Assembly: GCA_027075555.1 (NCBI GenBank)
Contig: JALTAZ010000130.1
Span: forward strand, 1-32,033
From: Micavibrio sp.
Lineage (GTDB): Bacteria; Pseudomonadota; Alphaproteobacteria; Micavibrionales; Micavibrionaceae
Direction of reading: 5' to 3'
DNA length: 32,033 bases
This document shows, one piece after another, positions 18,002 through 28,220 of the stretch; positions within the stretch are counted from its first letter, which is position 1; the number at the start of each line of letters is the position of its first letter. The notes below the pieces were generated by a model. It did no database searches, was not told the origin of the DNA, and saw only the letters and a list, made by a program, of their open reading frames with translations. The position numbers and the translations under genes are program-made.

Positions 18002-18015
18002 TGTTGAATTCAACA
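18002..18015. promoter_or_regulatory. 14-bp perfect palindrome between dapD and the FemAB-like gene
   Basis: TGTTGAATTCAACA is a perfect inverted repeat lying in the roughly 50-bp divergent region, touching the annotated FemAB ATG. It could be an operator for a dimeric regulator. Palindromes of this size are expected by chance a few times in 32 kb of AT-rich DNA, so position is the only support. Confidence 0.25.
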
Positions 18016-19898: not shown

Positions 19899-21275
19899 AT
19901 GACAAAGTCAAAGCCCATTGCCGTTGTTATTCTTGCCGCAGGCAAAGGTACGCGTATGAAATCAAAAAAGCCCAAGGTAATGCATGAGCTTTTGGGTTTG
20001 CCAATGATAAATTGGTTGCTTAATACAGTAGAACAACTTGACCCTGAAAGGGTGGTTGTGGTTGTAGGTAAGGGCATGAATGACCTTATTGATACCATAA
20101 AACCTCACAAATATGTTATTCAAAATAAACAACAAGGAACAGGTGATGCATTAAAGGCCGCTCTTCCTGCTTTGAAAGGCTTTTCTGGCGATGTTTTGGT
20201 ATTGCTTGGTGATACTCCGTTAATTGGTGTTTCTACTCTTCGTAATTTAATTTCTACGCGTAATATTGATGCGGTTACTGGTATCTCTGTTTTAGGGGTG
20301 AAAATGCAAAACCCCACGGGATACGGGCGCTTAATTATGGGGCGGAATAATATTTTAAAGGCTATTAGAGAAGAAAAAGATGCAAGCGCTCAGGAAAAGC
20401 AGGAAAATATAGTCAACACCGGAGCTTTTTGTTTGGATTCTCGGCGTATTGAACGCTGGCTTTCTAATTTGAATAATAAAAATGCACAAGGTGAGTATTA
20501 TATAACAGATATACCAGAGCTTGCCGCGCTTGACAAAATCAAAACCAGAGTTGTTATTGCCTCCGATGTTAATGAAGTAATGGGCTGTAATACCCGCATT
20601 GATTTATCAAAATTAGAGCAAGCCGCACAAAACAAAATGCGTGAACATTTCATGATGAATGGCGTTATTATGCAAGACCCTTCTAGTGTTTATTTTCATC
20701 ATGATACGCAAATTGGCGAAGGTACTTTAATAGAGCCAAATGTATATTTCTCCGCTGGTGTTAAGGTTGGCAAAAATACTCATATCAAGGCTTTTTGCCA
20801 TATAGATAATACTGTTATAGGCGATAAAACTACTATAGGACCATTTGCAAGGCTTCGTCCTGGTAGTGAAATAGGCGATGATGTTCGCATTGGGAACTTT
20901 GTTGAGATTAAAAAATCCAAAATAGGGGATCGCAGTAAGATTTCTCATCTAGGTTATGTAGGTGATTGCATTATGGATAGCGATGTTAACTTTAGTTGCG
21001 GGGCTATTACTGTAAATTATGACGGATTTCAAAAGCACCAAACTATAATTGGCAAAGGCGTGATGGTTGGCAGTAATGTTAATCTTGTTGCTCCAGTTAT
21101 TCTTGATGATGGGGCTTTTGTCGCCGCAGGTTCTACTATTACTACTGATGTTCCTGCTGATGCTTTGTCAGTTGAGCGCGGTAGGGCAGAAGTTCGCGCT
21201 GGCTGGGCTGCTTTATATAGAAAACGCAAGGAAAAAGCAAAAAATAATAATAAAGATAAGAAGAAGGAGTCTTGA
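19899..21275 (+). CDS. glmU: Bifunctional UDP-GlcNAc pyrophosphorylase / GlcN-1-P acetyltransferase
   Basis: GlmU acetylates glucosamine-1-phosphate and couples the product to UTP, giving UDP-GlcNAc for peptidoglycan and lipopolysaccharide. The uridyltransferase domain (residues about 1-230) carries VVILAAGKGTRMKSKKPKVM, QQGTGDALKAA and LLGDTPLI. The left-handed beta-helix acetyltransferase domain follows, with RLRPGSEIGDDVRIGNFVEI, SHLGYVGD and FSCGAITVNYDG. Its 458 residues and Lys-rich tail are normal. The glmS gene for the earlier pathway step lies 991 bp downstream, with a TIMP-like gene between them. The stop overlaps that gene's ATG by one base. Confidence 0.98.
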   Translation: MTKSKPIAVVILAAGKGTRMKSKKPKVMHELLGLPMINWLLNTVEQLDPERVVVVVGKGMNDLIDTIKPHKYVIQNKQQGTGDALKAALPALKGFSGDVLVLLGDTPLIGVSTLRNLISTRNIDAVTGISVLGVKMQNPTGYGRLIMGRNNILKAIREEKDASAQEKQENIVNTGAFCLDSRRIERWLSNLNNKNAQGEYYITDIPELAALDKIKTRVVIASDVNEVMGCNTRIDLSKLEQAAQNKMREHFMMNGVIMQDPSSVYFHHDTQIGEGTLIEPNVYFSAGVKVGKNTHIKAFCHIDNTVIGDKTTIGPFARLRPGSEIGDDVRIGNFVEIKKSKIGDRSKISHLGYVGDCIMDSDVNFSCGAITVNYDGFQKHQTIIGKGVMVGSNVNLVAPVILDDGAFVAAGSTITTDVPADALSVERGRAEVRAGWAALYRKRKEKAKNNNKDKKKES

Positions 21276-22156
21276 TGTTAAAGTTTTTTGTTATGGTGAT
21301 GTTTATATTATTTACTCCCTCTTCGCTTATGGCATGTTCATGCTCCGCAGATAGTTTTACAGATAATGCAAGCCGGAAAAATATTAAGAAAGCTGCTTTA
21401 ATATTTGAAGGAAAGACTTTGAATATATCAAAAGCTAAAGGAACTTCTAATTTTTCAGAAGTAAATATCAGGGTTGATAGGATTTATAAAGGTGAGGAAC
21501 AAAATAAAACCATATTAGTTTATGCTGATACTAAAACCAGTTGCGGCATATTGCCTTTGCCTTTGAAAAAACAAAAGTTTTTTATGATCTATAGGGTTGA
21601 TAACAGATATATTCTTGCAAGTGGTTGTGGCGCTTATATATCTGATAATGATATGAGTGCACTTAAAAACGGCGATTATTTATATCACCAACCACAAAAA
21701 TTATCTTTTCCTGAAAATTTTAAGAGCCGAAAAGACTTGGATAAGTGGGCAAGTAATACCACTATTGCAGGCGGGAAAATAACAGAAATTCAGTTCAGGG
21801 GAACAACTATTCTTATGGTATCTCGAAAATTTAGTTCCAAGAAAACTATATCTGATTTATCGTTCTATATCATGCAAAAAGGGGGCGGATACCAGCTTGG
21901 TGGTTTATATCCTTATGTGGTTTATGATGAAATAAAGGTAAAACAAACACCGGAAATTTTATCCTTTGTTACAAAAAGCGATGATATTACTTTATTAGAA
22001 ATAGCCCCGTCAGATATTATGGGTAAAACTTGTTCTCAAAAATCAGATTGTAGAGATAAACAATATTGCTTGAAAAATGATTATTTTGATGTAAATGGAT
22101 TGTGTATGCCCTGCCCTGATGATAATGGTCAATATATGCCCATTCAGTGTAAATAG
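21275..22156 (+). CDS. Secreted TIMP/NTR-like protein with Cys-rich C-terminus
   Basis: This 293-residue exported protein has a signal peptide followed by ACSCSADSFTDN, then ALIFEGKTLN, VNIRVDRIYKGEEQNKTILV, TKTSCG and ASGCGAYI. That order of CxC, a KG-containing strand and later SCG and CG matches the TIMP/netrin-like (NTR) domain found in many bacterial secreted proteins. Residues about 145-235 are unrecognised. The C-terminus has six cysteines in about 40 residues (from CSQKSDCRDKQYC). LMAC is a poor lipobox, so a lipoprotein is less likely than cleavage before the first Cys, but both are open. The ATG at 21275 is chosen over the track's TTG because GAAGGAG is well placed and it overlaps the glmU stop. 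Metalloprotease inhibition is known only for animal TIMPs; here it is speculation. Confidence 0.7.
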   Translation: MLKFFVMVMFILFTPSSLMACSCSADSFTDNASRKNIKKAALIFEGKTLNISKAKGTSNFSEVNIRVDRIYKGEEQNKTILVYADTKTSCGILPLPLKKQKFFMIYRVDNRYILASGCGAYISDNDMSALKNGDYLYHQPQKLSFPENFKSRKDLDKWASNTTIAGGKITEIQFRGTTILMVSRKFSSKKTISDLSFYIMQKGGGYQLGGLYPYVVYDEIKVKQTPEILSFVTKSDDITLLEIAPSDIMGKTCSQKSDCRDKQYCLKNDYFDVNGLCMPCPDDNGQYMPIQCK

Positions 22157-22266: not shown

Positions 22267-24096
22267 ATGTGCGGAATATTTGGAATTATTGGAGAGCAGG
22301 AAGTAGCCCCGCTTTTACTTGAAGGGTTAAAACGTCTTGAATATCGTGGCTATGATTCTGCTGGAATTGCTTGTTTATCAAATGGGCATATTGATCGCCG
22401 GCGTGCTCAGGGAAAGCTACATAATCTTGCCGCAAAATTAGAGGCTGATCCGTTAAAGGGAACGGTTGGTATAGGTCATACGCGCTGGGCAACGCATGGT
22501 CTTCCTAATGAACGCAACGCTCACCCGCATGCTAATGATAAATTGGCGGTTGTGCATAATGGTATAATTGAAAATTATGCTGCACTTAAATCAGAGTTGG
22601 AAGATCAAGGCGCAGTGTTTGAAACAGAAACTGATACCGAGGTTATTGTGCATCTGGTTACGCATTATATGAATGAAGGGTTAAAACCCGTAGATGCAGC
22701 AAATAAAGCTATGGATAGGTTAGATGGCGCTTATGCTCTGGTCATAATTTTTGCGGGACATCATGATTTTATCGTTGGGTGCCGTCATGGCACACCTTTG
22801 GCTATTGGCTATGGTGAGGGTGAGATGTTCATGGCATCGGATTCTTACGCGCTTGCTCCACTTACAAAGCGTATATGTTTTCTTGAAGATGGCGATAGAG
22901 TTATAGTCACGCGTAAAGATATTAAAATTTATAATAAAGATGGTGTCGCAGCAAATCGCAATATCCGCATTACTGAACAATCAGGGGCATCAACTGGAAA
23001 AGGCGAATATCGTCATTATATGCTCAAAGAAATATATGAACAGCCCGCAGTAATTGGTGAAACGCTTAACTCTTATGTAAATGCGGGAACGGGGAAAATA
23101 TCAATTCCTGAAGATGTTCTTGATGGTATAGTTAATGCTCCGCGCCTTACTTTAATTGCTTGTGGCACAGCGTATTATGCGTGCATGGTTGCAAAATATT
23201 GGTTTGAGCAAATAGCACGCATACCATGTGAGATTGATGTTGCAAGCGAGTTTAGATATAGAGAAGCGCCAATGCCTGAAGGGGGTGCAGCAATTTTTAT
23301 ATCTCAATCTGGTGAAACGTTAGATACATTGGAGGCTTTGCGCTATTGTAGATCTCAGGGACAAAAAATAATATCTATTATCAATACTATAGAAAGCACA
23401 ATAGAGCGTGAATCTGATTTTGTGCTTCATACTTTGGCGGGTCCGGAAATTGGCGTTGCATCAACCAAAGCATTCACAACGCAGCTAACAACCCTTGCAT
23501 GCATGATATTAGCAGCAGCCCGCAGCAAAGGGTCAATTGATAAAGAAAAAGAGCATGAAATGGCCGACGCCTTGCGCCACGTACCAACGATTGCTGCGGA
23601 TATGTTGCGGCATGATGAGGCAATACATTCCATAGCAAAAGATGTTGCAGATGCAAGGGACGTGCTTTATCTAGGCCGAGGTAGCTTATACCCAATCGCT
23701 CTAGAGGGAGCTTTGAAACTTAAAGAAATTTCATATATTCACGCAGAAGGTTATGCTTCGGGAGAGATGAAACATGGACCTATTGCTTTAATAGATGACA
23801 ATGTTCCTGTTGTTGTTATTGCACCAGAAAATGATCCATTATTTGAAAAAAATGCCTCTAACATTGCAGAAACAGTGGCTAGAGGCGGTAAGATATTTTT
23901 AATATCAGATGTGAAAGGTGCACATTTGCTTAAAAATCAGACAACATGGAGTGTGTCTATGGGGGCAGTTCACCATTTTGTTGCACCTATTTTATACTCT
24001 ATTCCAGTGCAGCTATTGGCTTATCATGTTGCAGTTCTAAAAGGTACAGATGTAGATCAGCCACGCAACTTGGCAAAATCGGTTACAGTTGAATAG
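22267..24096 (+). CDS. glmS: Glutamine--fructose-6-phosphate aminotransferase (isomerizing)
   Basis: GlmS makes glucosamine-6-phosphate from fructose-6-phosphate and glutamine, the first step to UDP-GlcNAc. The protein begins MCGIFGIIG, so Cys is the N-terminal nucleophile after Met removal. The class II glutaminase domain (to about residue 240) shows GHTRWATHG and HNGIIENYA. Two SIS sugar-isomerase domains follow, with FISQSGETLDTLEALRYCR and ASTKAFTTQ. The last residues, DQPRNLAKSVTVE, are the canonical C-terminus. At 609 residues it is complete. It completes a GlcNAc pair with glmU upstream; glmM is not in the window. Confidence 0.98.
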   Translation: MCGIFGIIGEQEVAPLLLEGLKRLEYRGYDSAGIACLSNGHIDRRRAQGKLHNLAAKLEADPLKGTVGIGHTRWATHGLPNERNAHPHANDKLAVVHNGIIENYAALKSELEDQGAVFETETDTEVIVHLVTHYMNEGLKPVDAANKAMDRLDGAYALVIIFAGHHDFIVGCRHGTPLAIGYGEGEMFMASDSYALAPLTKRICFLEDGDRVIVTRKDIKIYNKDGVAANRNIRITEQSGASTGKGEYRHYMLKEIYEQPAVIGETLNSYVNAGTGKISIPEDVLDGIVNAPRLTLIACGTAYYACMVAKYWFEQIARIPCEIDVASEFRYREAPMPEGGAAIFISQSGETLDTLEALRYCRSQGQKIISIINTIESTIERESDFVLHTLAGPEIGVASTKAFTTQLTTLACMILAAARSKGSIDKEKEHEMADALRHVPTIAADMLRHDEAIHSIAKDVADARDVLYLGRGSLYPIALEGALKLKEISYIHAEGYASGEMKHGPIALIDDNVPVVVIAPENDPLFEKNASNIAETVARGGKIFLISDVKGAHLLKNQTTWSVSMGAVHHFVAPILYSIPVQLLAYHVAVLKGTDVDQPRNLAKSVTVE

Positions 24097-24973: not shown

Positions 24974-25630
24974 CTAAGCTATCATAGCTACTCTATCTTC
25001 TTGCTTAGATTTTCTTTTGCGATATCCAACAAGAACTGCAAGGCTAATAACAAACATCGGCAAAGCAGCAGGAACAGGAACTGCTGAAACTTCGTAAGAT
25101 ATAGAAAAGTTCTTAGACCCTATTACAGTTCCTAGGAAAGTTGAAACAAAATCCAACGTTCCTGCAGATAGGTTTTTGATAATTGTTGTACCTGTTTGTG
25201 ATCCTTGTATCTCTGCGCTAGCAAACGCAAGAGCCGTAGAGGCAGAGCCATCAACACTACCCTCAGCAGCGGAAAAATTAGAGCCAACACCGTCAACACC
25301 AACCGCAAAACCTTCAAAAAGCTGCCCGCCATTTTCATATGAATAATCAGAAGTAGCAGATAAAAGTGCAGGGGTTCCAATATTACCATCAAAATTATAG
25401 CTAAATGTAACCATACCACCAGTTGGAAGAGTTCCATTTATTACATTTAGCACAGTATCACCAATTATAGATGCCCCAGTAATTGTACCTGTTTGCCCAA
25501 TAACAAGAGGATCTGGTGACATATTCACATATGGGCCTGTAAAATCGACACCAACCGCAGAAGCAGGCTTTGCCCCTATAACCGATACAAATATCATACC
25601 CGCAACCATCAAAAGATTTTGAATCTTCAT
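24974..25630 (-). CDS. VPLPA/PEP-CTERM-type sorted exoprotein
   Basis: This 218-residue secreted protein is the likely substrate of the exosortase encoded nearby. It has an N-terminal signal peptide (KIQNLLMVAGMIFVSVIGAK, cleaved near PASA), then a Gly/Ser/Thr/Ala-rich beta-type region with no cysteines. A tripartite C-terminal sorting signal follows: VPVPAALPMF, a hydrophobic helix and a basic RKRKSKQ cluster. The motif is closest to the VPLPA variant known from alphaproteobacteria. The ORF track begins six codons early at a TTG; the ATG at 25630 has GAGG about nine bases upstream. Unusually, about eleven residues follow the basic cluster. It is convergent with the SDR gene and divergent from the PrsT-like gene. 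Confidence 0.85.
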   Translation of the reverse strand: MKIQNLLMVAGMIFVSVIGAKPASAVGVDFTGPYVNMSPDPLVIGQTGTITGASIIGDTVLNVINGTLPTGGMVTFSYNFDGNIGTPALLSATSDYSYENGGQLFEGFAVGVDGVGSNFSAAEGSVDGSASTALAFASAEIQGSQTGTTIIKNLSAGTLDFVSTFLGTVIGSKNFSISYEVSAVPVPAALPMFVISLAVLVGYRKRKSKQEDRVAMIA

Positions 25631-25672
25631 TTCTTTATCCTCAATCAAAATAACCTATTAAGCTAGTGGTCT

Positions 25673-25826: not shown

Positions 25827-28220
25827 ATGACATTGCGTAGGTTTTGGCTTATCACTATAAGCGTAATGATCAGCTTTACTCTTGTTGCTTGTAACTCGCC
25901 AGAGGAAAAAGAGAAGAAATATATAAGCCGTGGCGATAGTTTTTTTGAACAACAAGACTATATTAAGGCTCGCCTTGAATATCGCAATGCTGCTCGTATA
26001 TCTCCTGCTGATCCTGAGATATTACATAAGCTAGGTCTTGTAGATGAAATGCAAGGAAATATAGGAAGTGCATTAAAAGCCTATTTAGTAGCAGAGCAAC
26101 AAGACCCCAATTTTATTCCCGCAGTTATAAGGTTATCTCAGTTCTATTTAACAGTAGGGCAATATGATCAGGTAGAAAAACGTATTGATCATGTTTTATC
26201 GATTGATCCTAAAAACTCCACGGCTCATGCTTTAAAAGCATCACTTTTACTTAAAAATAAGAAATTTGATGAAGCCAAAGCAGAAGTCGAAGCCGCTCTT
26301 AAACTTGATTCAAAAAATATAGTTGCATTCTCTGTTCTTGCGGGCATTTACCTAGCCCTTGAAAAATATGATAAAGCCATAAAAACTCTAGATAGGGGGA
26401 TAGAGCGCAACCCCAAGGATTTATCGTTATTATTGCTTAAAGCGGCAGTATATTCCGAAGCTAGAAATTATTCTAAGGTGATTGATACCTATAAGTCAGT
26501 ATTCAAGCTTAGACCTGATGATATAACTATGCGTTTTGACCTTGCTGAAATATTATCTAAGGAAGGATATGAGAAAGAAGCGGAGCAGGTTCTTAGAGAT
26601 ACTGTTAAAAAATTTCCTGATAATATATTAGCTAAGCGCAAGCTTTCATTGGCAATGGAGAAATGGGCAGGAATATCACAAGCGGAAAAAGAAATCCGTT
26701 CTTATATAGAAAAAAGCCCAGATCAGAAAATTTTATATTTATGGTTGGCTGACTTGTATATAAGGGGCGATCTTGCTGATAAAGCTATTCAAACATTAGA
26801 AAATGTTATTAGTGCCAATGTAGATGAAGGTATTAGCCTTAATGCTAGTACGTCTTTGGCTGGAATAAAATTAAATCAAGGTGACGCGGCCTTTGCATCA
26901 AAACTGATTGCTGAGGTTTTGGCTAAAGATATAAATAACAAAGAAGCCCTTTTTGTTCGTGCCAGTTTGGCATTTTCTCAAGGTGATTATCAGAGCGCAG
27001 TATCTGATCTAAGGACGATAATACGTGATAACCCGAAAGACACAAAGGCCTTTCGTATTTTAGCAGAAGCATTTATAATCCAAGGATATAACGACCTTGC
27101 CATAGATACGCTACAGCAATCAATTGAAGCTGATCCTACAAATTTAACAACTTATATTCGTTTAGCGCAGCTATATATATTAAGAAAGGATATAGAGCGT
27201 GCACGTGAAATCTTATCTATGGTAACAAAAACTGATCCTAAAAACCTAATAGGCTGGGAGAGTATGGCGCGATTGGCAATTAAAGAACAGGATTGGAAAA
27301 GTGCTAATTATGCTATAGAAAGGCTTTCATCTATAGATGCTAAAGATAGCCTTATATTATTTTTACGTGGGCAAATTAAGGAGGCTCAAGGCGATAAGAA
27401 AGAAGCGATGAGAATTTATAAGCAAGTTATAGATAAAAACCCTTCATCATCTTTATCAGAACATGCATTATCTGCGCTGCTATTGATTGCTGAGGAGCTT
27501 AACCAGCTATCAGAGATTTCTAAATATATAGATTCTCTTGATACTAAAACGGCAACTATTCCAACCGTAAGTGGTAAGTTATTACTTATGCTTGGCAAAA
27601 CAAATGAGGCTATATCTGCTTTTAACAGGGCTATAAAAAGCAGTCCTAGTACACAATTGCCATATATTTATTTGGCAAAAATATATATTAGAAATGGTGA
27701 TCTTGATAAAGCTATAGAAATATTGAAACAGGCAAGTAAAGCCATTCCTACAGAAATAAATGCTTTGATGATGATGGCAGATGTCTTTTCTAAGCAAGGT
27801 CAAATTGCGAAGGCTATCAATATATATAATAGACTTTTATCAGAAAATCCTGAACTTGATGCCGCGGCAAATAATTTGGCTCAGCTTATCGCCGATTATC
27901 AAAGCGATGATAAAAAGGCTATGGCAAAAGCTAAGATAGCCGCAGAGCGTTTTATTACTTCTGATAATCCATATTATTTAGATACTTTGGGCTGGGTTTA
28001 TACTCGTCAGGGAAATTACGCACAAGCCAAGCCAATTTTAGAGCGTTCACTATTCCTTGTGGATTTTCCTCTACCGCAAATGCAATATCATTATGGGTAT
28101 TTGCTTTTTAAAATGGGTGATCTTGATAAAGCTATAGAAATATTGCAAGAAGCAGCAAAAGGAAATGATAAATACCCTGCCTTTAATGAGGCTAAAAACC
28201 TACTTAATAGAATTAAATAA
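25827..28220 (+). CDS. PrsT-like TPR-repeat lipoprotein of the exosortase system
   Basis: This 797-residue lipoprotein has a signal sequence ending in the lipobox LVAC (Cys22). About twenty tetratricopeptide-type helical pairs follow, for example YDKAIKTLDRGIERNPKD and YNDLAIDTLQQSIEADPTN. It matches the layout of PrsT, the TPR lipoprotein repeatedly found with exosortases and thought to support export or assembly of exopolysaccharide or sorted proteins. Known family association supports the call; the molecular role is not established. It lies between the CTERM substrate and the convergent exosortase gene, six bases from the latter. GGAGA precedes the ATG. A 30-bp exact in-frame repeat near its end is listed separately. 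Confidence 0.87.
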   Translation: MTLRRFWLITISVMISFTLVACNSPEEKEKKYISRGDSFFEQQDYIKARLEYRNAARISPADPEILHKLGLVDEMQGNIGSALKAYLVAEQQDPNFIPAVIRLSQFYLTVGQYDQVEKRIDHVLSIDPKNSTAHALKASLLLKNKKFDEAKAEVEAALKLDSKNIVAFSVLAGIYLALEKYDKAIKTLDRGIERNPKDLSLLLLKAAVYSEARNYSKVIDTYKSVFKLRPDDITMRFDLAEILSKEGYEKEAEQVLRDTVKKFPDNILAKRKLSLAMEKWAGISQAEKEIRSYIEKSPDQKILYLWLADLYIRGDLADKAIQTLENVISANVDEGISLNASTSLAGIKLNQGDAAFASKLIAEVLAKDINNKEALFVRASLAFSQGDYQSAVSDLRTIIRDNPKDTKAFRILAEAFIIQGYNDLAIDTLQQSIEADPTNLTTYIRLAQLYILRKDIERAREILSMVTKTDPKNLIGWESMARLAIKEQDWKSANYAIERLSSIDAKDSLILFLRGQIKEAQGDKKEAMRIYKQVIDKNPSSSLSEHALSALLLIAEELNQLSEISKYIDSLDTKTATIPTVSGKLLLMLGKTNEAISAFNRAIKSSPSTQLPYIYLAKIYIRNGDLDKAIEILKQASKAIPTEINALMMMADVFSKQGQIAKAINIYNRLLSENPELDAAANNLAQLIADYQSDDKKAMAKAKIAAERFITSDNPYYLDTLGWVYTRQGNYAQAKPILERSLFLVDFPLPQMQYHYGYLLFKMGDLDKAIEILQEAAKGNDKYPAFNEAKNLLNRIK
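27696..28145 (+). repeat. 30-bp exact in-frame direct repeat within the TPR array
   Basis: A 30-base sequence beginning GGTGATCTTGATAAAGCTAT is identical at 27696-27725 and 28116-28145, both encoding GDLDKAIEIL. The 420-bp distance equals 140 codons, about four TPR units, so exchange between copies would keep frame. Confidence 0.85.

Follow-up and report, generated by a model that had tools for sequence, protein, structure and literature searches.

TIMPs have been presented in a recent review as a metazoan protein family (PMC9409782), and a 2021 paper on Listeria stated that bacterial TIMP-like proteins had not previously been recorded in the literature (PMC8235301). The protein described there, Tim of Listeria monocytogenes, is an exported bacterial TIMP-like protein recognised by structure prediction alone. 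Tim is a predicted lipoprotein encoded on a phage-like element beside the metzincin gene Mtz, and its homologues outside Listeria have predicted signal peptidase I signals (PMC8235301). AprI-type serralysin inhibitors are bacterial metzincin inhibitors in which the N-terminal amine coordinates zinc (cited in PMC8235301). They are encoded with the producer's own protease. Here we describe a 293-residue protein of Micavibrio sp. that is encoded between glmU and glmS, at positions 21275-22156 on the forward strand (ATG at 21275) of contig JALTAZ010000130.1 (assembly GCA_027075555.1); the 32,033 nucleotides of this contig are referred to below as the window. Like Tim, it is an exported TIMP-like protein of a bacterium, and it shares signal peptidase I-type signals with the non-Listeria homologues of Tim. 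Unlike Mtz/Tim, its family has glmU and glmS rather than a metzincin gene as neighbours and is inherited at a chromosomal operon. Compared with the open-access literature, it is a bacterial TIMP/NTR-superfamily protein of new architecture and not a canonical TIMP.

The exported part of the window protein consists of a CSC-headed domain, a middle domain of ~105 residues and a six-cysteine tail. Residues 21-135 (mature residues 1-115; 21335-21679, on the forward strand as are all parts of the locus) form an NTR/TIMP-like OB domain, as the initial annotation had proposed from the letters of the DNA, and this assignment comes from profile searches against PDB and from AlphaFold and Foldseek. A 12-sequence profile found 15 matches among all PDB sequences, 14 of which are TIMP-2 or TIMP-1 (best E value 4.6e-4). 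A 40-sequence profile of the mature domain found 17, comprising 12 TIMPs, four agrin NtA domains and one unrelated protein (E 0.3), with TIMP-2 as the best match (E 1.3e-4 among 177,635 PDB sequences). Both profiles aligned CxC on TIMP residue 1, with the first cysteine as position 1 of the larger profile; the agrin NtA matches of the larger profile start after CxC. When 40 members were compared singly with Pfam, NtA (5), TIMP (4, best E 1.3e-4) and NTR (2) were the three most frequent families. The window protein itself is not covered by any Pfam or NCBIfam model, and agrin NtA (E 0.074) is its sole Pfam hint. The Pfam TIMP model had no matches over 299 phylum genomes, in which its controls likewise matched nowhere, so that this negative carries no weight. 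The OB-like barrel that the initial annotation expected of a structure prediction is present in the AlphaFold model, which has a mean confidence score (pLDDT) of 84 and ~90 in the NTR part. Leading PDB fold matches are agrin NtA (best), TIMP-1, PCOLCE NTR and complement NTR, with Foldseek probabilities of 1.00 to agrin NtA and TIMP-1 and TM(target) of 0.55-0.61; E values are modest (best 1.6e-3), in part because the query holds three domains. The window protein thus combines an NTR/OB barrel with detectable sequence homology, and it almost certainly belongs to the TIMP/NTR superfamily.

The cysteine pattern extends this similarity to animal TIMPs. Human TIMP-1 has disulfides Cys1-Cys70 and Cys3-Cys100 (PMC9409782). 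The predicted mature N-terminus of the window protein is Cys1-Ser2-Cys3 (residues 21-23; 21335-21343), with Ser2 as in TIMP-2, and the predicted partners of its two cysteines are Cys70 (residue 90; 21542-21544) and Cys98 (residue 118; 21626-21628). Among 56 relatives, Cys1 and Cys70 are both present in 43 and both absent in 13, while Cys3 and Cys98 are kept or lost jointly, with one double loss (L139); neither pair has an exception in the 56 sequences. Replacements of Cys1, commonly by Leu, usually go with Trp in place of Cys70. Such coupling is as expected if the residues form TIMP-type disulfides. It is striking, yet shared ancestry probably accounts for part of it: a tree test yielded three independent pairs on well-supported branches, all agreeing, which are too few for significance.

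Export signals place the CxC pair at the mature N-terminus. A signal peptide is predicted at residues 1-20 (21275-21334), with cleavage between LMA and CSC, and the AxA-then-CxC arrangement is family-wide. Residues acceptable to signal peptidase I directly precede CxC in 39 of 43 relatives, with Ala at -3 in 34 and an often bulky residue at -2. All 22 members at the glmU-glmS locus have an AxA-type motif that ends exactly at CxC, and the mature protein should therefore begin with Cys; the LMA-C of the window protein is the least typical of the 22, although it is compatible with signal peptidase I and falls outside the strict lipobox. A free N-terminal Cys in the mature protein is thus very probable from these motifs. 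The initial annotation had suggested such an N-terminus, and the residues before CxC that would speak against it are not predicted at the locus.

The position between glmU and glmS is also conserved. The upstream glmU (19899-21275), with Pfam Hexapep and NTP_transferase domains, ends in a TGA (21273-21275) that overlaps the next ATG by one base (TGATG), and a ribosome-binding site, AGGAG (21265-21269), can be read directly 5 nt before the ATG. Translational coupling to glmU, which had been claimed at the outset, is plausible because of this overlap and binding site. The downstream glmS (22267-24096) has Pfam SIS and GATase domains; its closest named relatives are from Micavibrio sp. and Alphaproteobacteria, and glmS served as the query by which named-genome relatives of the locus were reached. 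The glmU-glmS interval contains a CxC member in 19 Micavibrionales genomes, namely the window genome and 18 others, so that the gene order does recur elsewhere as the initial annotation had asked. Twelve of these belong to the family of the window genome (including G106, whose interval is split between two contigs) and seven to a second family. Starts and stops of several members overlap or abut on both sides, and some intervals hold tandem copies (L013, L031, L247 and L248). On the tree, the members from this locus group together (3 changes versus 18.2 in shuffles), which indicates that the position is old within the order.

With one sequence as the query, relatives turned up in 15 of 95 kin genomes; with the 12-sequence profile, relatives of the domain turned up in 41 of 142 Micavibrionales genomes. 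Wider samples yielded 13 of 385 genomes for the class and 5 of 399 for the phylum; both include the window's own genome, and the class sample also holds other Micavibrionales members. On these counts the family is concentrated in Micavibrionales. In a 12-sequence alignment at 21-40% identity to the window protein, C21, C23, G73, C90 and G91 are invariant; together with the relatives in 41 of 142 genomes, this conservation rules out a chance open reading frame. By tblastn, the window protein had no relatives on phages or plasmids, and a BFVD fold search returned nothing convincing. The same genome has a second CSC-headed relative away from glmU-glmS (L131:3985-4497; contig C46, 14029-14343), ~4 kb from an M3-type peptidase gene with an HEMGH motif. 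In other Micavibrionales the NTR domain is fused to HEAT repeats (L145:2373-3752 and L146:606-1994) or to pentapeptide repeats (L011:487-1920 and L015:1492-3369, with Cys1 lost in L015).

The window protein is best read as an exported TIMP/NTR protein, most likely a TIMP-like metzincin inhibitor that acts outside the cell, with a probability of about 0.4 by analogy with known TIMPs. The export signal, fold and homology, disulfide pattern and conserved position support this reading, while cleavage at the N-terminus in vivo, zinc coordination, inhibition and the target are inferred. Signal peptidase I would remove 20 residues to expose a free Cys1-Ser2-Cys3, and pairing of Cys1 with Cys70 and of Cys3 with Cys98 would produce the same N-terminal wedge as in animal TIMPs. 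By analogy, the amine and carbonyl of Cys1 could then bind the catalytic zinc of an extracellular metzincin-type protease, and the middle and Cys-rich parts may provide target or surface binding; zinc-chelating inhibition of some metzincin is a tentative proposal. A protease of the cell itself is probably not the target; one made by neighbours or prey could be.

Several observations weigh against inhibition, against a TIMP identity or against a predatory context. The third disulfide of the TIMP N-domain (Cys13-Cys123) has no counterpart in the four cysteines of the NTR part, the unrelated middle domain and six-cysteine tail stand in place of the TIMP C-terminal domain of animal proteins, and the window protein does not score above the gathering cut-off of Pfam TIMP (PF00965), which is why we do not file it as a TIMP. 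Some nematode TIMPs also have no C-terminal domain (PMC9409782). Residue 2 varies among relatives (S, E, D, R, K, T, W and others), and some relatives are without Cys1 or without both Cys1 and Cys3, including paralogues in the same glmU-glmS interval. Nor is a free N-terminal Cys shared by all members, since CxC seems to follow a few extra residues in a subgroup away from the locus (L014, L036, L037, L041, L043 and L044). The initial annotation had suggested looking for secreted metalloproteases in the genome, and this search was negative. In the 1.97-Mb assembly (161 contigs, estimated completeness 100%, on which these negatives rest), HExxHxxGxxH has one DNA match, outside any open reading frame of at least 120 residues, the H-to-D form of the motif is absent, and there is no hit to an M10 protease. 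M10 proteases occur in 56 of 142 Micavibrionales genomes without co-occurrence with the locus (7 of 19 carriers versus 49 of 123 other genomes; p = 1). Furthermore, the window organism is not a known predator.

The strongest alternative is that this is an NTR-fold binding module and not an inhibitor, with the OB domain, middle domain and Cys-rich tail together making up an adhesion or receptor protein that is secreted or displayed at the surface; this is a substantial minority possibility. The NTR domains of agrin NtA, PCOLCE and complement, which share the fold of the window protein, are binding modules and not zinc chelators. The best fold match to agrin NtA, the persistence of same-locus paralogues that have lost Cys1 and Cys3, the fusions to HEAT or pentapeptide repeats, and the failure of the motif and M10 searches to reveal a protease partner in the genome all suit such a role. 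It is opposed by the sequence profile, which is closest to TIMPs with agrin NtA behind, and by the glmU-glmS lineage, in which CxC nearly always lies directly at the cleavage site, a placement that plain binding does not need. Acylation of Cys21 through Lgt, Lsp and Lnt would make the protein a lipoprotein that cannot chelate zinc, as predicted for Listeria Tim with its lipobox LTAC (PMC8235301), and the S-L-M-A-C of the window protein does have Leu at -3 and Ala at -1. However, none of 43 relatives fits the strict lipobox [LVI][ASTVI][GAS]C, most have Ala at -3 and a bulky residue at -2, and members without Cys1 retain the AxA site, so lipidation is judged highly improbable.

Inhibition could also be directed inward, with the protein regulating a secreted or periplasmic zinc protease of its own cell in the manner of Listeria Mtz/Tim or Pseudomonas AprA/AprI. 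Listeria and other Gram-positive bacteria have a TIMP-like gene beside a metzincin gene (PMC8235301), and M10 proteases do occur in Micavibrionales (56 of 142 genomes, as above), but the window genome has no recognisable metzincin or M10, no protease gene adjoins the locus and M10 presence does not follow it, which makes this reading improbable. The operon itself invites a role at the cell envelope with the products of GlmU and GlmS (amino sugars of peptidoglycan and lipopolysaccharide), for which the conserved position and the overlapping starts and stops on both sides speak, as does the altered cell-wall sensitivity associated with Listeria Mtz/Tim (PMC8235301). In other relatives, however, the glmU-glmS junction is empty or holds unrelated genes (by eye glycosyltransferase-like, SPFH-like, GNAT-like and permease-like), and relatives in other families of the order are located elsewhere. 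The junction thus looks permissive, although the operon is a housekeeping one; this speaks against any specific role in amino-sugar metabolism and leaves that explanation very unlikely. If the protein is a metzincin inhibitor, its target is more likely foreign, given that no metzincin is recognisable in the genome itself and that M10 presence does not go with the locus. Serratia serralysins, which are metzincins, affect the attachment of Micavibrio aeruginosavorus to prey and thereby lower its predation, an effect that neither proteinase K nor trypsin had (PMC6145908). A relative would therefore gain from blocking serralysins, and a secreted TIMP-fold inhibitor that uses the wedge of animal TIMPs could serve as a predator's counter-defence by neutralising the serralysin-type metalloproteases that help prey or neighbours to resist attachment. 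Pre-treatment of prey alone blocked predation (PMC6145908), which weighs on this counter-defence proposal, and we consider it unlikely.

The middle domain (residues 140-250; 21692-22024) is predicted with confidence (pLDDT 87) as a helix and seven strands, and it remains as unrecognised as the initial annotation had left it, with no known family and no match among PDB folds (best E 0.19). Of 142 Micavibrionales genomes, 9 encode it: six as a fusion, C-terminal to the NTR domain, and three (G039, G134 and G135) as a separate short open reading frame. Wherever its surroundings were read, it sits in the glmU-glmS interval. The standalone form was read in detail in G039 (L007) and at two named-genome loci (L060 and L062), where it adjoins an NTR-like protein without Cys1 and Cys3 that has its own Cys-rich end. 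Occurrence of the modules either fused or separate at one locus suggests that the NTR, middle and Cys-rich modules work together. The intervals at L060:3145-4983 and L062:3145-4983 each encode three exported proteins: a 161-residue protein without a Pfam family, the middle domain alone, and the NTR-like protein without CxC. Short exported open reading frames at the same junction in L063:2284-2478 and L119:4678-4932 have a start (ACEGF..MDALE in L119) that resembles the N-terminus of the standalone middle-domain protein. The tail (residues 250-293; 22022-22153) has the six cysteines of the C-terminal module noted initially, at 253, 259, 265, 277, 280 and 292 and thus all within the final 41 residues, in addition to those at 21, 23, 90 and 118, and it recurs in a tandem paralogue in G053. 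Matches to Dickkopf_N (E 0.035, for the paralogue) and to a defensin-like family (E 0.016) are both below cut-off, and the tail is therefore left unnamed.

Elsewhere in the window, a protein encoded at 24974-25648 (reverse strand) ends in VPxPAALP...RKRK, which resembles a PEP-CTERM sorting signal. Beside it, a 797-residue TPR protein (25827-28220, forward strand) comes near the PrsT model (296 bits; cut-off 312), and a FemAB-like gene at 18015 has a weak match to the PEP-CTERM-associated FemAB model.

A Gram-negative family that has sequence homology to TIMPs, couples its cysteines in the same way and is predicted to expose a free N-terminal Cys is relevant to the age of the TIMP wedge. Small single-domain relatives, such as the 124-residue L010, are suited to a direct test of inhibition by N-terminal Cys and zinc outside animals. 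If the target is indeed a prey protease, the family would add a molecular layer to bacterial predation.
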